Of a stretch of DNA of 36,375 nucleotides, positions 26,002-32,840 are shown piece after piece. The DNA is taken from positions 1-36,375 of the forward strand of contig JACOWC010000054.1 of assembly GCA_016177005.1 (NCBI GenBank), written 5' to 3'. The position numbers were made by a program, and so were the translations under genes. Source of the stretch: Methylocystis sp. Its GTDB lineage: Bacteria; Pseudomonadota; Alphaproteobacteria; Rhizobiales; Beijerinckiaceae. How positions within the stretch are numbered: position 1 is the first letter of the stretch; every line of letters begins with the position of its first letter. A model generated the notes under the pieces. It saw nothing but the letters and a program-made list of their open reading frames with translations. It searched no databases and had not been told where the DNA came from.

Positions 26002-27273
26002 TTACGCAGATCCGCCAAAACGATCCGCCGCCGCGCTGATGGCGTCGTAAACGAGATCGAGCTCGGCTTCCTCGACGCAGTACGGCGGCAAGACATAGAT
26101 CGTCGGCCCGAGCGGGCGCAACAGCAGTCCGCGCTCATTGAAGAAGCGCATGAGATCGAGCGCGATCGTCGCAAGATAGCCGCCTTGCGCGACATTGAGA
26201 TCAAGCGCCGTGATCGTTCCAAGCTGACGGGCGTTGGAGAAGCGCGCGTCGCCGGCAAAGCGCGCAAGGCGTTTCGCCTGCATATCGCAAAGCGCCGCGA
26301 CTCTCGCGGCGGGTTCTCCCGTCGCCCAGATATCGAGATTGGCGAGCGCCGCGGCGCAGGCGATCGGATTGGCGGTAAAGGAGCTCGAGTGAAAAAAAGC
26401 GCGCGCGCGCTCCGGCGATAAATGCGCCTCGAAAATTTTGCGCCTGCACATGGTGACGGCGAGCGGCAGCGCGCCGCCGGTCAGGCCCTTGGCGTAGCAG
26501 ACGATATCCGGAACGACGCCCGCCTGCTCGCATGCGAAGAGCGTTCCCGTGCGTCCGAAGCCTGTCATCACCTCATCGGCGATGAACAGCACGCCGTAAT
26601 GTGCGCAGATGCGTTTCATCTCCGCCAGCGTATCGGCGCCGTAGATGAGCATGCCGCCTGCGCCAAGAATGAGCGGCTCGACAAGAAAGGCTGCGGGTCT
26701 CTCCCGACAGGCGCGCTCGAGCGCGTCGAGCGTCTCCTGCTCCCGTCCGCCTATGGGGAAGGGAATGCGCGACACCTCATAGAGCAGCGGCTCGTAGGGC
26801 GCGTTAAAAGGCGAGCGCGCGCCGGCGGACATCGTTCCGATCGTATCGCCATGATAGCCGTGTTCGAGCGCGACGATGCGTGTGCGCGCGTCCTGACGAT
26901 TGCGCCAGAAGCCGAGCGCCATCTTGATCGCCACTTCGACGCAAGTGGACCCGCTATCGGAATAAAACACATAATCGAGCCCCGGCGGCGTCAGCGCCAC
27001 GAGCCGCCGCGCAAGGGCTTCCGCCGGTTCGTGGGTAAAGCCAGCGAAAATCACCTGATCGAGCCGTTCGGTTTCCTCGCGGATCACTTGCATGATCGCC
27101 GGATGGCGATGGCCATGGGTGATCACCCACCAGGACGAGATGGCGTCGAGAAAGCGCCCGCCGTCGTCGGCTTCGAGCCAAGCGCCTTCGGCGCGCGCGA
27201 TCTTGAAGGCGCCCGGTTGCAGCGCATGCTGGGTGTACGGCCGCCAGATCGGCGAGTCGATGACGAAGCTCAC
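26002..27273 (-). CDS. bioA: Adenosylmethionine--8-amino-7-oxononanoate transaminase
   Basis: BioA converts KAPA to DAPA in biotin synthesis, using S-adenosylmethionine as amino donor. The 423-residue class III PLP aminotransferase has the BioA start IWRPYTQH and the substrate-site text DAISSWWVITHGHRHPAI. It also has the PLP-site DEVMTGFGRTGTLFACE and the Schiff-base lysine at about residue 262 in CYAKGLTGG. The start is a GTG at 27273 overlapping the bioD stop (GTGA). It is the last gene of the operon, convergent with fadD. Confidence 0.95.
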   Translation of the reverse strand: MSFVIDSPIWRPYTQHALQPGAFKIARAEGAWLEADDGGRFLDAISSWWVITHGHRHPAIMQVIREETERLDQVIFAGFTHEPAEALARRLVALTPPGLDYVFYSDSGSTCVEVAIKMALGFWRNRQDARTRIVALEHGYHGDTIGTMSAGARSPFNAPYEPLLYEVSRIPFPIGGREQETLDALERACRERPAAFLVEPLILGAGGMLIYGADTLAEMKRICAHYGVLFIADEVMTGFGRTGTLFACEQAGVVPDIVCYAKGLTGGALPLAVTMCRRKIFEAHLSPERARAFFHSSSFTANPIACAAALANLDIWATGEPAARVAALCDMQAKRLARFAGDARFSNARQLGTITALDLNVAQGGYLATIALDLMRFFNERGLLLRPLGPTIYVLPPYCVEEAELDLVYDAISAAADRFGGSA

Positions 27274-27905
27274 CCGCCGCTCCCAAAGGCGTCGCGCGCG
27301 ATCGCGGCGTTAAACGCCGCGCGAAGCGTGTTCTGATTCAAAGGATCAAGTTTCGGCAGCCGGCCGAGAATGCGTGCGCCGCCGATCGTCTCGATGGAGC
27401 GTTGCGCGTCGGCGTCGGCCGCGCCGGAAAAAACGATGCCCGTTATCGGAATCGACCGTCTGCGCAAGGCTTCGAGCGTGAGCAGGCTGTGACTGATCGT
27501 GCCAAGACTCGTGCGCGCGACGAGAATGACAGGAAGCCGCCAGCGCTCGAGCACATCGATCGTCAGCGCACGATCGCTGAGCGGCGTCATCGCGCCGCCC
27601 GCCGTCTCGATCACGAGAAGACCGCCGCACTGTGGCGGGGTCAATGCGGCGGCGTCGATTTCGACGCCCTCGTCGCGCGCGGCAAGGTGGGGGGAAGCGG
27701 CTCGACGCAATCGCCAGGCTTCGGGGAAAATGCGCGCGGTGGGCGCGCCCGAAAGCCGCGCGACAATTTGCGAGTCCGTCTCGCCGTCGAGGCCCGCCTG
27801 CACCGGCTTCCAATAATAGGCGTCAAACGCGCCGACGATCGCTGCGGCGACGATGGTCTTGCCGACGCCGGTGTCCGTTCCGACGATCACGACCGGGCGG
27901 TTCAT
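27270..27905 (-). CDS. bioD: Dethiobiotin synthase
   Basis: BioD closes the ureido ring of dethiobiotin from DAPA, CO2 and ATP. The 211-residue protein has the P-loop VGTDTGVGKT (residues 8-17), the YYWKPVQAG segment with its conserved lysine, and VIETAGGAMTPL. The ATG at 27905 overlaps the bioF stop (ATGA) and its own stop overlaps bioA. It is slightly shorter than many homologues, with no obvious loss of catalytic parts. Confidence 0.95.
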   Translation of the reverse strand: MNRPVVIVGTDTGVGKTIVAAAIVGAFDAYYWKPVQAGLDGETDSQIVARLSGAPTARIFPEAWRLRRAASPHLAARDEGVEIDAAALTPPQCGGLLVIETAGGAMTPLSDRALTIDVLERWRLPVILVARTSLGTISHSLLTLEALRRRSIPITGIVFSGAADADAQRSIETIGGARILGRLPKLDPLNQNTLRAAFNAAIARDAFGSGG

Positions 27906-29035
27906 GATTTAAGTCTCGACAACTCTTCGCCAAGATGCGCGATCATGCGCGCAACGTCTTCCTTGCGCGTATTGAGCGTCAGGGCGATGCGCAGCCGGGC
28001 CGAGCCCTCCGGCACCGTCGGCGGACGAATGGCGCGAATATCATAGCCATGCGCCTGCAGGCGCGACGCCAACGTCGTCGCGCGCACGTCGGCGCCGACG
28101 ACGATCGGTTGAATCTGGCTTCCCGACGGCTCCATCGCGCAAAGCCGGCGCAGCTCGGCGCCGGCGAATTCGACTCGCGAGATCAGCTCGGCGCGCCGGT
28201 CGTCGGCAGCCTCGATGATTTTGAGCGCCGCGCGCACGCAAGCAGCGACAATGGGCGAAGGCGCCGTCGCGAAAATGAACGGCCGGCAGCGGTTGATCAA
28301 GAAATCGCGCAAGACGCGCGGCACACAGAGGAGACCGCCCGCCACGCCCATCGCCTTGCCGCAGGTGTGCAAGGTGATGACATTGTCCGCGCCTTCAAAA
28401 CGCGCGGCGAGGCCACGGCCGCCCGGACCGTAGACGCCCGTCGCATGCGCTTCGTCGATCAGCAGAAAGGCGTCGCTCTTTGCGGCGAGCGCATAGAGAT
28501 CGTCGAGCGGCGCCTTGTCGCCATCCATGCTGTAAAGGCTTTCGACCACGATCCAGACCTGCCCGCGTCCGCCCTTTGCGCGCCAGGCGCGGATCGCGTC
28601 TTCCGCGGCGCCGGCGTCATTATGAGCAAAACTCGCATTCGGCGCACGCGCCAATCGCATGCCCTCATGAGCGCTGGCGTGCGCGAGCGCATCATAGAGA
28701 ATAAGATCCTCGCGCTGAGGCGCAGTCGAAAGCAGCGCCTCATTGGCGGTAAAGCCGGCGCTGAAGTAAAGCGCGCTGTCAGCGCCAAAGAAGCGCGCGG
28801 CCTCCTCTTCCAAAGCCTCATGCTCCGGATGATTGCCGCGCAAGAGCCGTGAGCCGCCGGCGCCGATGGGAACGCCGCGGGCGAGCGCAGCATTCGCGGC
28901 TGCGGCGAGTTCCGACGATTCGGAAAGCCCCAAATAATCGTTAGACGCGAAATCCAACCCGACCCGCGGCGCCAGCATGCGCAATCTGCCGCGCGCCGCG
29001 AGGCCGGCGAGATCCCGCGTATAGCGATCGAACAT
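27902..29035 (-). CDS. bioF: 8-amino-7-oxononanoate synthase
   Basis: BioF is a PLP alpha-oxoamine synthase that joins pimeloyl-ACP/CoA and alanine to give KAPA. The 377-residue protein shows DFASNDYLGLS, GAGGSRLLRGNHPEHEALE, YFSAGFTANEALL, LIDEAHATGVYG and the lysine near residue 227 in HTCGKAMGVAGG. The ATG at 29035 gives a standard-length start (FDRYTRDLAGL). The earlier ATG at 29071 would overlap the preceding gene and add 12 untypical residues. AGGA lies about 12 bases upstream. bioB is not in the window. Confidence 0.93.
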   Translation of the reverse strand: MFDRYTRDLAGLAARGRLRMLAPRVGLDFASNDYLGLSESSELAAAANAALARGVPIGAGGSRLLRGNHPEHEALEEEAARFFGADSALYFSAGFTANEALLSTAPQREDLILYDALAHASAHEGMRLARAPNASFAHNDAGAAEDAIRAWRAKGGRGQVWIVVESLYSMDGDKAPLDDLYALAAKSDAFLLIDEAHATGVYGPGGRGLAARFEGADNVITLHTCGKAMGVAGGLLCVPRVLRDFLINRCRPFIFATAPSPIVAACVRAALKIIEAADDRRAELISRVEFAGAELRRLCAMEPSGSQIQPIVVGADVRATTLASRLQAHGYDIRAIRPPTVPEGSARLRIALTLNTRKEDVARMIAHLGEELSRLKS

Positions 29036-29052: not shown

Positions 29053-29397
29053 TCAGGAGAACCGCTCCCATGCCGCTTGGCGGGAGACGCCCAAAGCCTT
29101 GCCGATCGCCGTCCAGCTGACCTCGCGTTTGCGAAGCGCCGCGACTTGCGTGTGGATGAAGGAATGCAGCGCCGCGACGCTCGCCTCGCTCGCCTTGATC
29201 GAAGAAAGCAGCTGCTCGTCAGAAAGATCGTCCCAGCTTTTGAAAGGCGAAGGCGCTGCGTCAAGGATTTTGTTGCACACGCCGACGCAGTCTTCGCAAA
29301 TGTAGCCGCCGGCGGCGCCGCCGACGAGTCGCGAAACCTGGGTCTCCGCCTTTCTGCAAAAGGAGCAGCGCAGTTTGCGTTTGGGCAGGGCCAGCAT
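29053..29397 (-). CDS. Small ClpX-type zinc-finger / helix-turn-helix protein, first gene of the bio operon
   Basis: A 114-residue soluble protein. Residues 11-41 form a ClpX-type C4 zinc finger (CSFC at 11-14 and CEDC at 34-37) with the GGYICEDCV signature. The AAA+ ATPase of ClpX is absent. A helical middle section follows. Residues 93-113 (VSWTAIGKALGVSRQAAWERF) look like a helix-turn-helix of the kind found in small DNA-binding proteins. The ATG at 29397 is preceded by GAGGG. The gene ends 17 bases before bioF, on the same strand, and is probably co-transcribed with bioFDA. Two perfect palindromes lie 13-65 bases upstream of its start. I infer a DNA-binding, possibly autoregulatory role; the family match proves only zinc-finger plus HTH. 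Confidence 0.8.
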   Translation of the reverse strand: MLALPKRKLRCSFCRKAETQVSRLVGGAAGGYICEDCVGVCNKILDAAPSPFKSWDDLSDEQLLSSIKASEASVAALHSFIHTQVAALRKREVSWTAIGKALGVSRQAAWERFS

Positions 29398-29410: not shown

Positions 29411-29429
29411 TGTCAAGCTTGACTTGACA
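29411..29429. promoter_or_regulatory. Palindromic operator 1 (TGTCAAG-N5-CTTGACA)
   Basis: A perfect 7-bp inverted repeat with a 5-base spacer. It lies 13 bases upstream of the zinc-finger/HTH gene ATG, just before its ribosome site, and upstream of the divergent methyltransferase-family gene. The right arm contains TTGACA, a consensus -35 box for the plus strand. Binding here would be expected to block initiation of the bio operon transcript. Confidence 0.65.
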
Positions 29430-29443
29430 TACGAAGCTGGTCT

Positions 29444-29462
29444 TGTCAAGCATTCCTTGACA
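29444..29462. promoter_or_regulatory. Palindromic operator 2 (TGTCAAG-N5-CTTGACA)
   Basis: An identical pair of arms with the same 5-base spacing as operator 1. The centres are 33 bp apart, about three helical turns, so two dimers could bind on the same face of DNA. The spacer sequences differ (CTTGA and CATTC), so the arms are what is conserved. Confidence 0.65.
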
Positions 29463-29510
29463 GGCGACTTGAAACCGTCACGATGAAACGCGATTTAGTC
29501 AAAGTGTGTA

Positions 29511-29558
29511 TTGGAGCGTTTCCTGGAGCGTCTCTTGCAGCGTTTCTTGGAGCAGCCG
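29511..29558 (+). repeat. Four tandem 12-base units, three of them carrying GGAG
   Basis: Consecutive units TTGGAGCGTTTC, CTGGAGCGTCTC, TTGCAGCGTTTC and the partial TTGGAGCAGCCG. They sit just before the ATG at 29561, and the last GGAG is in good Shine-Dalgarno position for it. If the ATG at 29483 is used instead, the units encode the repeated tetrapeptides GAFP, GASL, AAFL and GAA. Confidence 0.7.
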
Positions 29559-29560
29559 TC

Positions 29561-30046
29561 ATGACCGCGCCGATGCGCGAGGATGCGTCGCCTTCCCGCA
29601 TTCCCTGGCCCCCGATTTTGATGGGGCTGACGCTCGCGGCCGGGCTGGCGCTCGACGCCGCGACTCAGACGTCGCTCATTGATCGGGCGTCCTCTTCTTT
29701 CATACAAGCCGCAGGCGCAGCGATCGTCGTCCTGGCGCTCGCTAATGATGTCTGGTGCTTTCGCATTTTCTCGCGCCATCAAACTACGATCATGCCGCAC
29801 CGCGCCGCGTCCTTTCTCGTCACCGAGGGACCGTTCCGCTTTTCGCGCAATCCGATCTATGTGTCTCATGTCGCTTTGATCTTTGGACTGGGTCTGTTCC
29901 TCGGCTCGCCCTTCACGCTGCTGTTGACGCCGGTTCTTGCGGTTGGCCTGACCAAGCTCGCCATCAAGCCCGAAGAGCGGCGCCTTCTTGAGAAATTTGG
30001 CGACGACTATCGGTCCTATGTGGCGCGCACGCGGCGGTGGCTTTAA
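29561..30046 (+). CDS. Isoprenylcysteine carboxyl methyltransferase (ICMT/PEMT)-family membrane protein
   Basis: A 161-residue protein with about four hydrophobic segments. The C-terminal family signature reads [27 protein letters not shown], followed by [25 protein letters not shown]. Bacterial members bind SAM and methylate small hydrophobic substrates or lipids; the substrate is unknown. An in-frame ATG at 29483 would add 26 residues that are partly tandem-repeat encoded. I prefer 29561 because GGAG lies 9 bases upstream and family members usually start shortly before the IPWPP segment. It is divergent from the zinc-finger gene and shares the operator region with it. The copA start follows 37 bases after its stop. 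Confidence 0.85.
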
Positions 30047-30083: not shown

Positions 30084-32840
30084 ATGAACGCTCAAATTCC
30101 TTTACCGGGCGTCGAACGCCTTGACTTCACCGTCCGGGGCATGACCTGCGCCTCTTGCGTGTCGCATGTCGAAAAAGCGCTTGCCCGTACGCCGGGCGTA
30201 GAGGCCGCCAGCGTCAATCTCGCCACTGAACGGGCTGAGGTCTCGCTGGCGCCGGGCGCCAGTCTCACGCAACTTGTGAAATCAGTCTCGGACGCGGGCT
30301 ACGAACCGGTGGTCGAGACGATTGAGATCGGCGTCGGCGGCATGACCTGCGCCTCCTGCGTCGCTCATGTCGAAAAGGCGCTGAGCGCCGTTCCAGGCGT
30401 GATCGAGGCGAAGGTCAACCTTGCGACCGAGCGCGCTTCCATGCGCGCGCTCTCCGGTCCTGGCCTGACCGATCGCCTGCGCCGCGCCATTTCGCAGGCC
30501 GGCTATGAGCCGCGAGCCATCGAAACCGATTCCGGCGGCGCCGATCGCGAGCGGGCGCGACGCGAAGAGGAAATGCGCGCATTGCGTTTCCGCCTCATCG
30601 TCGCCGCCATTTTGACGGCGCCGGTCTTTGCGGTGGAAATGGGCGGGCACCTCATCCCCGCCGTCCACCACTGGGCCATGGCCACGATCGGCGAGGCAAG
30701 GATTCGCGAGATTTCCTTCCTGCTGACGAGCGTCGTGCTGTTCGGTCCCGGCCTGGTGTTCTTCCTCAAGGGCATTCCGTCGCTGTTGCGGCGCCAGCCC
30801 GACATGAACGCGCTCGTCGCCATGGGCACGCTGAGCGCATACCTCTATTCCGTCGTGGCGACTTTTACGCCCAGCGCGCTTCCGGCGGGCTCGGCGCATG
30901 TCTATTACGAAGCGGCGGTCGTCATCGTCACTTTGATCCTCTTTGGCCGCTTTCTCGAAGCGCGCGCCAAGGGCCGCACGTCGGAAGCGATCCGCGCCCT
31001 GGCGAAGCTTCAACCGAAGACCGCCAGAGTCGAACGCGACGGCGCGACCGTAGATGTCGATATCGACGAGGTTCGCGTCGGCGAAATCGTTCTGGTTCGG
31101 CCGGGCGAGCGCATTCCGACCGACGGCGTCGTCACGCAGGGCTCGTCCCATGTCGACGAGTCGATGGTCACAGGCGAACCGACGCCCGTCGCAAAAAGGC
31201 CAGGCGCCGCGGTCACCGGGGCGACCGTCAACGGCTCCGGCGCGTTCTCGTTTCGAGCGACCCGGGTCGGCGCGGATACGACGCTCGCCGGCATCATCCG
31301 TATGGTCGAGCAGGCGCAGGGCGCGAAACTGCCGATTCAGGCGATGGTCGATAGCGTCACCGCCGTCTTCGTCCCCGCCGTCTTTGCGGTCGCGGCGTTG
31401 ACCTTCGTCATTTGGATGCTGATCGGACCGGAGCCGCGCCTCACTTATGCGCTCGTCAACGCGGTCGCCGTGCTCATTATCGCCTGTCCCTGCGCCATGG
31501 GACTGGCGACGCCGGCGGCGATCATGACCGGCACCGGCCGCGCGGCGGAGCTTGGCGTGCTCTTTCGCAAGGGCGAGGCGCTGCAGACGCTGCGCGACGT
31601 GACGCTCATCGCTTTCGACAAGACCGGCACGCTGACCCATGGCAAGCCGCGCCTCACCGATCTTATCGCGATGCGCGGCAAGAAGGAGACGGATCTGCTG
31701 CGTCTCGCCGCAAGCGTCGAGGCGCAGTCGGAGCACCCCGTAGGCGCCGCTCTGGTCGCCGCCGCCAGGGCGGCGGACCTCTCGCTTGCCCTATGCGCCG
31801 ACTTCAAATCCATCGCCGGCATGGGGGTTACCGGAATCGTCGACCGCAAGGCCGTCGCCGTCGGCGCCGAGCGCTTCATGGCGACGCTCGGCGTCGACGC
31901 CGCGCCCTTCGCACAGGACGCCCAGAGGCTCGCTGAACAAGGCAAGACGCCGCTTTACGTCGCGGTCGGCGGCAAGCTTGGCGCCATACTGTCCGTCGCC
32001 GACGATCTGAAGCCGACAAGCCGAGCGGCGATCGACGCGATTCATTCGATCGGCGTGACAACGGCGATGATCACCGGCGACGACGAGCGCACGGCAAGAG
32101 CGATCGCCCGAAGGCTTGGAATCGACGAGGTGATCGCCGGCGTTCTCCCCGATGGAAAAGTCGCCACGCTCGAGCGCCTGCGCGAAGCAAATAAAATCGC
32201 TTTCGTCGGCGACGGCGTGAACGACGCGCCGGCGCTCGCCGCCGCCGACGCCGGCATCGCCATCGGCACGGGAACCGACATTGCGATCGAAGCCGCCGAC
32301 GTCGTGCTGATGTCGGGCGATCTCGCCAAGGTGCCGGCGGCGCTTTCCGTCTCGCGGGCGACGATGCGCAACATTAAACAGAATCTGTTCTGGGCTTTCG
32401 GCTATAACGTGCTGCTCATCCCCGTCGCGGCGGGCGTTCTTTATCCAGTCAACGGCATGTTGCTCTCGCCGATGTTCGGCGCGGCGGCGATGGCTCTGTC
32501 GAGCGTCTTTGTCCTCACCAATGCGCTGCGCTTGCGCGGTTTCGAACCGCCGGTCGTCGTTGCGAGGGCCGATGGCTCCGGGCGAGCGGCGCCAATCGAA
32601 ACGAAAACGGCGGATGAGGAAATCAAGGAGGAAACGATGACGACATTCAACGTGAAGGATATGACCTGCAATATGTGCGTGAAGCATGTCACCAAGGCGG
32701 TGCAATCGGTCGAGCCGAACGCCGACGTCAAAGTCGATCTCGCGACCGGCAAGGTCGACGTCACCCCTACGCCGAAGGACGCGGCGGCGCTCGCCAAGGC
32801 GATCACCGAAGCCGGCTATCCGGCGCAGGTCGCCGCGTGA
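30084..32840 (+). CDS. copA: Cu(I)-exporting P1B-type ATPase CopA with C-terminal CopZ-like domain
   Basis: A 918-residue copper pump of the inner membrane. Two N-terminal HMA domains carry GMTCASC (Cys22/25 and Cys89/92). The core has MVTGEP, the membrane copper site ACPCAMG (Cys468, Cys470), the phosphorylated Asp512 in [18 protein letters not shown], and [10 protein letters not shown]. After the last helices and a charged linker, residues 852-918 form a third HMA domain with DMTCNMC. A C-terminal HMA domain is unusual for CopA, and it coincides with an internal ribosome site and ATG. The start at 30084 follows GAGG; earlier ATGs at 29988-30051 lie in or next to the preceding gene. Copper export suits a cell making large amounts of copper-dependent methane monooxygenase. 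Confidence 0.93.
32625..32639 (+). promoter_or_regulatory. Internal ribosome binding site within copA
   Basis: AAGGAGG, a 5-base spacer and ATG. It lies inside the copA frame at the boundary between the ATPase and its C-terminal metal-binding domain, and decides the alternative CopZ start. Confidence 0.65.
32637..32840 (+). CDS. copZ: CopZ-like copper chaperone, probable separate product from an internal start in copA
   Basis: From the ATG at 32637 the copA frame encodes a stand-alone 67-residue HMA domain ([17 protein letters not shown]). Its metal-binding cysteines are at positions 11 and 14, and the length is that of CopZ/CopP chaperones. An exceptionally good Shine-Dalgarno, AAGGAGG at 32625-32631, lies 5 bases before this ATG, better than that of most genes in the window. 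This suggests that ribosomes initiate here and make free chaperone in addition to, or instead of, the fused domain. Whether the fusion is also translated cannot be told from sequence. Confidence 0.6.

Follow-up and report, generated by a model that had tools for sequence, protein, structure and literature searches.

The twin palindromes at positions 29411-29462 of a 36,375-nt stretch of a contig from the methanotroph Methylocystis (the window, meaning the whole stretch of DNA analysed here) are, in our reading, operators of the adjacent zinc-finger/HTH protein, a dimer of which would repress its own promoter and the bioF-bioD-bioA genes. We place the probability of this reading at about 0.8. 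Sequence comparisons link the sites to the gene across phyla, restrict them to it, relate the HTH to that of a known regulator, and set gene and sites together before bioF. From these we infer DNA binding, dimerisation, and repression rather than activation.

Results

TGTCAAG-N5-CTTGACA is present twice in the window, with 7/7 matching bases in the arms, N5 spacers and a start-to-start distance of 33 bp (Table 1). Coordinates and spacing are exactly those given by an earlier, sequence-only reading of this DNA, which had reported two perfect palindromes with 7-bp arms and equal spacing. Allowing up to three mismatches, the window contained three matches, two of them perfect, against a mean of 0.58 in dinucleotide shuffles. 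In the Methylocystis assembly (2.06 Mb in 193 contigs, 65% complete), these two are the only perfect copies; the same 65%-complete assembly has one match with two mismatches elsewhere, and none for a reversed-pattern control. The earlier reading also described arms that are kept and spacers that differ. The two spacer sequences are indeed unlike each other, and in a footprint across 10 relatives the arms of both sites were conserved and the spacers were not.

The two flanking genes had been named correctly: the minus strand carries zf-C4_ClpX plus HTH, the plus strand a gene of the PEMT/ICMT family. The 163-base divergent gap proposed between them stands if the methyltransferase starts at 29561, and becomes 85 bases if the in-frame ATG at 29483 is used. 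Absent from that reading was the biotin operon: the zinc-finger/HTH gene heads bioF-bioD-bioA, in the same direction. Because only 17 nt lie between the regulator gene and bioF, the predicted switch would also cover bioFDA in Methylocystis.

Table 1. Features around the twin palindromes, in window coordinates
Feature	Position	Strand	Remarks
bioA	26002..27273	-	TIGR00508
bioD	27270..27905	-	TIGR00347
bioF	27902..29035	-	begins 17 nt past the stop codon of the regulator gene
114-aa ClpX-type zinc finger/HTH protein, proposed autorepressor	29053..29397	-	Pfam, PDB profile match, AlphaFold
HTH, residues 94-113, whose recognition segment SRQAAWERF is nearly invariant	29059..29118	-	homology to the N-terminal domain of ClpC2
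ClpX-type C4 zinc finger, residues 10-46	29260..29370	-	Pfam; Foldseek to 2ds5/2ds6/2ds8
Operator proximal to the zinc-finger/HTH gene, TGTCAAGCTTGACTTGACA	29411..29429	none	predicted; 13 nt upstream of its start codon
Operator distal, TGTCAAGCATTCCTTGACA	29444..29462	none	predicted; 46 nt upstream of the start codon
PEMT/ICMT-family membrane protein, divergent	29483..30046 (start could be 29561)	+	
Copper-type P1B ATPase, copA-like, divergent	30084..32840	+	follows the methyltransferase

The 114-aa protein matched Pfam zf-C4_ClpX (PF06689, 3e-14), and the profile of its family matched ClpX zinc-binding domains in the PDB (E 4e-15). The AlphaFold model (mean pLDDT 88.5) consists of the finger, a long helix of 31 residues (60-90) that precedes the HTH, and two short helices; with a pTM of 0.53, the relative placement of the domains is unreliable. 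In Foldseek, the finger aligned to the ClpX zinc-binding domain (2ds5/2ds6/2ds8) with target TM of 0.84-0.91 and E of 0.005-0.04. No AAA+ module was matched in the 114-aa protein, so it does not qualify as a ClpX unfoldase; a separate 424-codon open frame with a ClpX finger, at G000:C41, is presumed to be clpX. Pfam HTH matches in the 114-aa protein fell below the curated cut-offs, and the HTH is therefore called from the comparisons with RelI and ClpC2 together with the structure model. PADLOC models gave no match. Plasmid and phage collections contained two near-full-length relatives, on Nonomuraea/Streptomyces replicons, and the phage matches were mostly to the ClpX finger alone; thus, this search identified no mobile-element carrier.

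The genus itself offers a natural control. The zinc-finger/HTH gene occurs in 21/39 genus genomes, directly before bioF in 17 and elsewhere in four. In the 17 genomes, gene and twin sites stand between PEMT/copA and bioF, although in one of them the contig ends and the sites are not visible. The two sites are exactly 33 bp apart in all intact pre-bioF loci (the window and 16 others), and the four genomes with the gene elsewhere carry TGTCAGG-type sites, some with one mismatch. Thirteen further bioF loci have no such gene before them; they keep the copA-PEMT|bioF synteny and show no site at up to three mismatches in 300 nt. Given this co-occurrence and co-absence before bioF, gene and operators behave as one unit. 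We read the gene-less copA-PEMT|bioF arrangement as probably ancestral.

This control bears on another explanation, in which the zinc-finger protein is a bystander: the palindromes would serve a different regulator –for instance, a metal- or biotin-responsive one– that acts on copA/PEMT or bioFDA. The location makes such a regulator conceivable, with copA and PEMT flanking the sites on the other side and bioFDA being a classic regulated operon. However, the 13 gene-less loci retain these same neighbours and lack the sites, and in other genomes the sites accompany the zinc-finger gene with no copA or bio genes nearby. We regard this explanation as very improbable.

A scan of two gene-less regions upstream of bioF found no BioR-like box. 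By eye, the regulator-less bioF upstream regions (L250-L263) have in common a promoter-like CTTGAC...TTTACCA pattern and a TTTTCAACCC-like element.

For distant homologues, genomes were scanned for full-length proteins, which were found in alpha- and gammaproteobacteria, Myxococcales, Nonomuraea and Nocardioides. The test set comprised the 20 homologues that were neither Methylocystis-like nor from Nocardioides; they were picked by protein similarity, not by motif, and a simple rule served to assign their start codons. A motif-free dyad search recovered GTCA-N9-TGAC upstream of 19/20, compared with 3/939 background windows from the same loci. With YGTCARG-N5-CYTGACR and at most one mismatch, 20/20 had a site and 17/20 had two (background, 2 and 0 of 939). 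Since the degenerate pattern was shaped on the same loci, the dyad search carries more weight as a test. Twin spacing varied by lineage (18, 22, 26-28, 33 and 38-44 bp). No such site, nor any common dyad, was present upstream of 12 Nocardioides homologues that share the HTH. Closer to the window, the expectation that orthologues would carry the motif was borne out, both sites being present in the 16 further intact genus loci and in four named close relatives (33 bp apart in three, 39 bp in L052).

The position of the sites helps to separate repression from activation. Each right arm contains TTGACA, which is the sigma-70 -35 hexamer, and this favours an autoregulated activator that would use TTGACA as a promoter element. 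On the other hand, a scan around the twin sites recognised no sigma-70-type promoter or terminator and no -10 partner for the hexamer; 2-30 nt usually separate the end of the proximal site from the start codon, a position where a repressor would sit; and the homologue ClpC2 represses. An activator is thus very unlikely, and the repressor that we favour probably has sites overlapping its promoter, judging by their closeness to the start codon.

The neighbours of the homologues vary between lineages, so they share no physiological target that would point to the signal. At three Caulobacterales-type loci (L061, L067, L071), a large same-strand gene after the zinc-finger/HTH gene appears acyl-CoA synthetase-like by eye, and is possibly another captured neighbour. 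At L005:1894-3333, in the family relative G021, the zinc-finger/HTH gene is followed by genes whose translations look by eye like lutA/lutB, for lactate utilisation.

At the genome level, 18 carrier genomes contained 45 sites of the degenerate pattern, 30 upstream of the gene and 15 elsewhere, and the reversed control gave 7; the split was made by comparing site coordinates with the homologue loci plus one extra gene copy. This agrees with the proposed rarity of the motif, with 30/45 sites at the gene and the remainder near the control count. In one MAG, a second pair of sites marked a second copy of the zinc-finger/HTH gene. The 15 lone sites, not far from the control, are taken as mostly chance, and therefore the protein appears to be a local autoregulator; an exact pattern would miss weak degenerate sites of any wider regulon.

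Two of the 15 outside sites form a twin CGTCAAG-N5-CCTGACG, 28 bp apart, just upstream of L156:2085-2894 on the minus strand. The 270-aa product of this Nonomuraea gene contains a comparable HTH-like segment, SWEMIGEQLGEISKQAAHERY, and gave no significant Pfam match. Segment and sites together suggest that autoregulators of this type come in a third architecture. A perfect TGTCAAG-N5-CTTGACA also occurs in a same-genus genome without the regulator gene (L040, G057:C26:37048-37066), inside or beside restriction-modification-like genes as judged by eye; it is probably there by chance.

The genome-wide sites also bear on whether the protein could be a dedicated biotin regulator that replaces BioR/BirA and senses biotin or a precursor. 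It is encoded by the first gene of bioFDA in 17 genus genomes, as such a regulator could be. However, in the M. rosea genome the degenerate pattern has just two exact sites, both at the zinc-finger/HTH gene, which leaves its other biotin genes unmarked; most homologues lie far from biotin genes, and the four genus members with the gene elsewhere argue in the same direction. Pfam detected no GntR-type HTH or biotin ligase domain in the 114-aa protein. A dedicated biotin sensor seems improbable, if slightly less so than the bystander and activator explanations.

Comparison with proteins of known function points to ClpC2 and RelI. Over the HTH, the family profile matched RelI in the PDB with E 6e-10 and the ClpC2 N-terminal fragment with E 0.1. 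Direct alignment of the HTH regions by hhalign, family against ClpC2 residues 4-72, gave a probability of 97% (E 2e-10), compared with 0.6% for a reversed control, and hmmsearch of the HTH against 15 ClpC2 orthologues gave E of 2e-10 to 4e-13. These orthologues, recovered from the Nonomuraea family, have GTCAAC-N5-GTTGAC upstream of the start codon in 15/15 cases. At half-site position 7, G was found in 94/96 half-sites of the ClpX-finger/HTH family, which were collected with a G-favouring pattern, and C in 62/64 of ClpC2; that this base changes in step with SRQAAWERF versus TKQAAQKRF is a lead.

Discussion

Sites upstream of orthologues and their genome-wide restriction give strong support to the palindromes as putative operators of the adjacent HTH protein, as the sequence-only reading had proposed. 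At the mechanistic level, a dimer would cover each palindrome and repress its own promoter, and with it bioF-bioD-bioA 17 nt downstream. The part that reads the DNA would be the homologue of the ClpC2 N-terminal domain, and the part that senses would be the copy of the ClpX zinc-binding domain. By analogy with ClpC2, a ligand of the finger would release the protein from DNA so that more of it is made; self-repression with derepression by a ligand, both taken from ClpC2, is the most likely mode of action.

In ClpX, the zinc-binding domain is a dimer that docks adaptors such as SspB and some substrates. Tentatively, the family may thus be a proteobacterial sensor-sponge for ligands of this domain (adaptors, phage proteins, natural products): a ligand would lift autorepression, the decoy finger would shield ClpX as ClpC2 does ClpC1, and the Methylocystis switch would also drive biotin synthesis. 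We consider this wider role possible, though doubtful as a whole.

These findings suggest at least two occasions on which a Clp docking domain was fused to one kind of HTH for autoregulation, one involving ClpC1 and the other ClpX. In the literature searched, we found no description of the ClpX-finger/HTH combination, its function or its operator, and a checkable operator is now given for the family. The locus is also a clear case of a vitamin operon behind an autoregulated gene. Moreover, because the HTH is the only domain that the two families have in common, their common operator indicates the N-terminal domain as the specificity determinant of ClpC2. This contrasts with the ClpC2 paper, which put the DNA contact in the C-terminal domain (PMC10030653).

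Among known systems, BioR/BirA resemble the zinc-finger/HTH protein in its expected control of biotin synthesis genes, and differ in domain family and operator. The ClpX zinc-binding domain (PDB 1ovx, 2ds5-2ds8) is like its finger in sequence and predicted fold; unlike ClpX, the protein has no AAA+ module, and the finger is followed by an HTH. The antitoxin RelI (Rv2664, PDB 9sdc; PMC13284704) has a homologous HTH segment, but it is paired with RelS and lacks a zinc finger. RelI was reported to resemble ClpC2 –a self-repressor– in an HTH region, and inverted repeats upstream of it were not reported (PMC13284704). Visual inspection of the ORF lists around the homologues examined here revealed nothing recognisable as a toxin gene.

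The closest parallel is ClpC2 (Mycobacterium Rv2667 and its M. smegmatis orthologue), a proven autorepressor whose binding site upstream of its own gene, CGTCAAC-n5-GTTGACG, is frequently present in duplicate (PMC10030653). It senses ClpC1-directed antibiotics in mycobacteria, and cyclomarin lifts its repression (PMC10030653). Both proteins have a homologous HTH-bearing domain, and in both the DNA-binding part is joined to an incomplete copy of the docking domain of a Clp unfoldase. Twin autoregulatory operators, putative for the zinc-finger/HTH protein, lie beside the start codon in both cases, with 7-bp arms, an N5 spacer and GTCAA as core. They differ in the sensing part (Clp_N, from ClpC1, versus the ClpX zinc-binding domain), in domain order, which is reversed, and in operator and recognition segment (GTCAAC with TKQAAQKRF versus GTCARG with SRQAAWERF). 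Pfam found zf-C4_ClpX in the 114-aa protein in place of the Clp_N ligand-binding domain, so we liken it to ClpC2 in its proposed mode of action and do not class it as one. Overall, it looks like the ClpX-side counterpart of the mycobacterial antibiotic sensor ClpC2.
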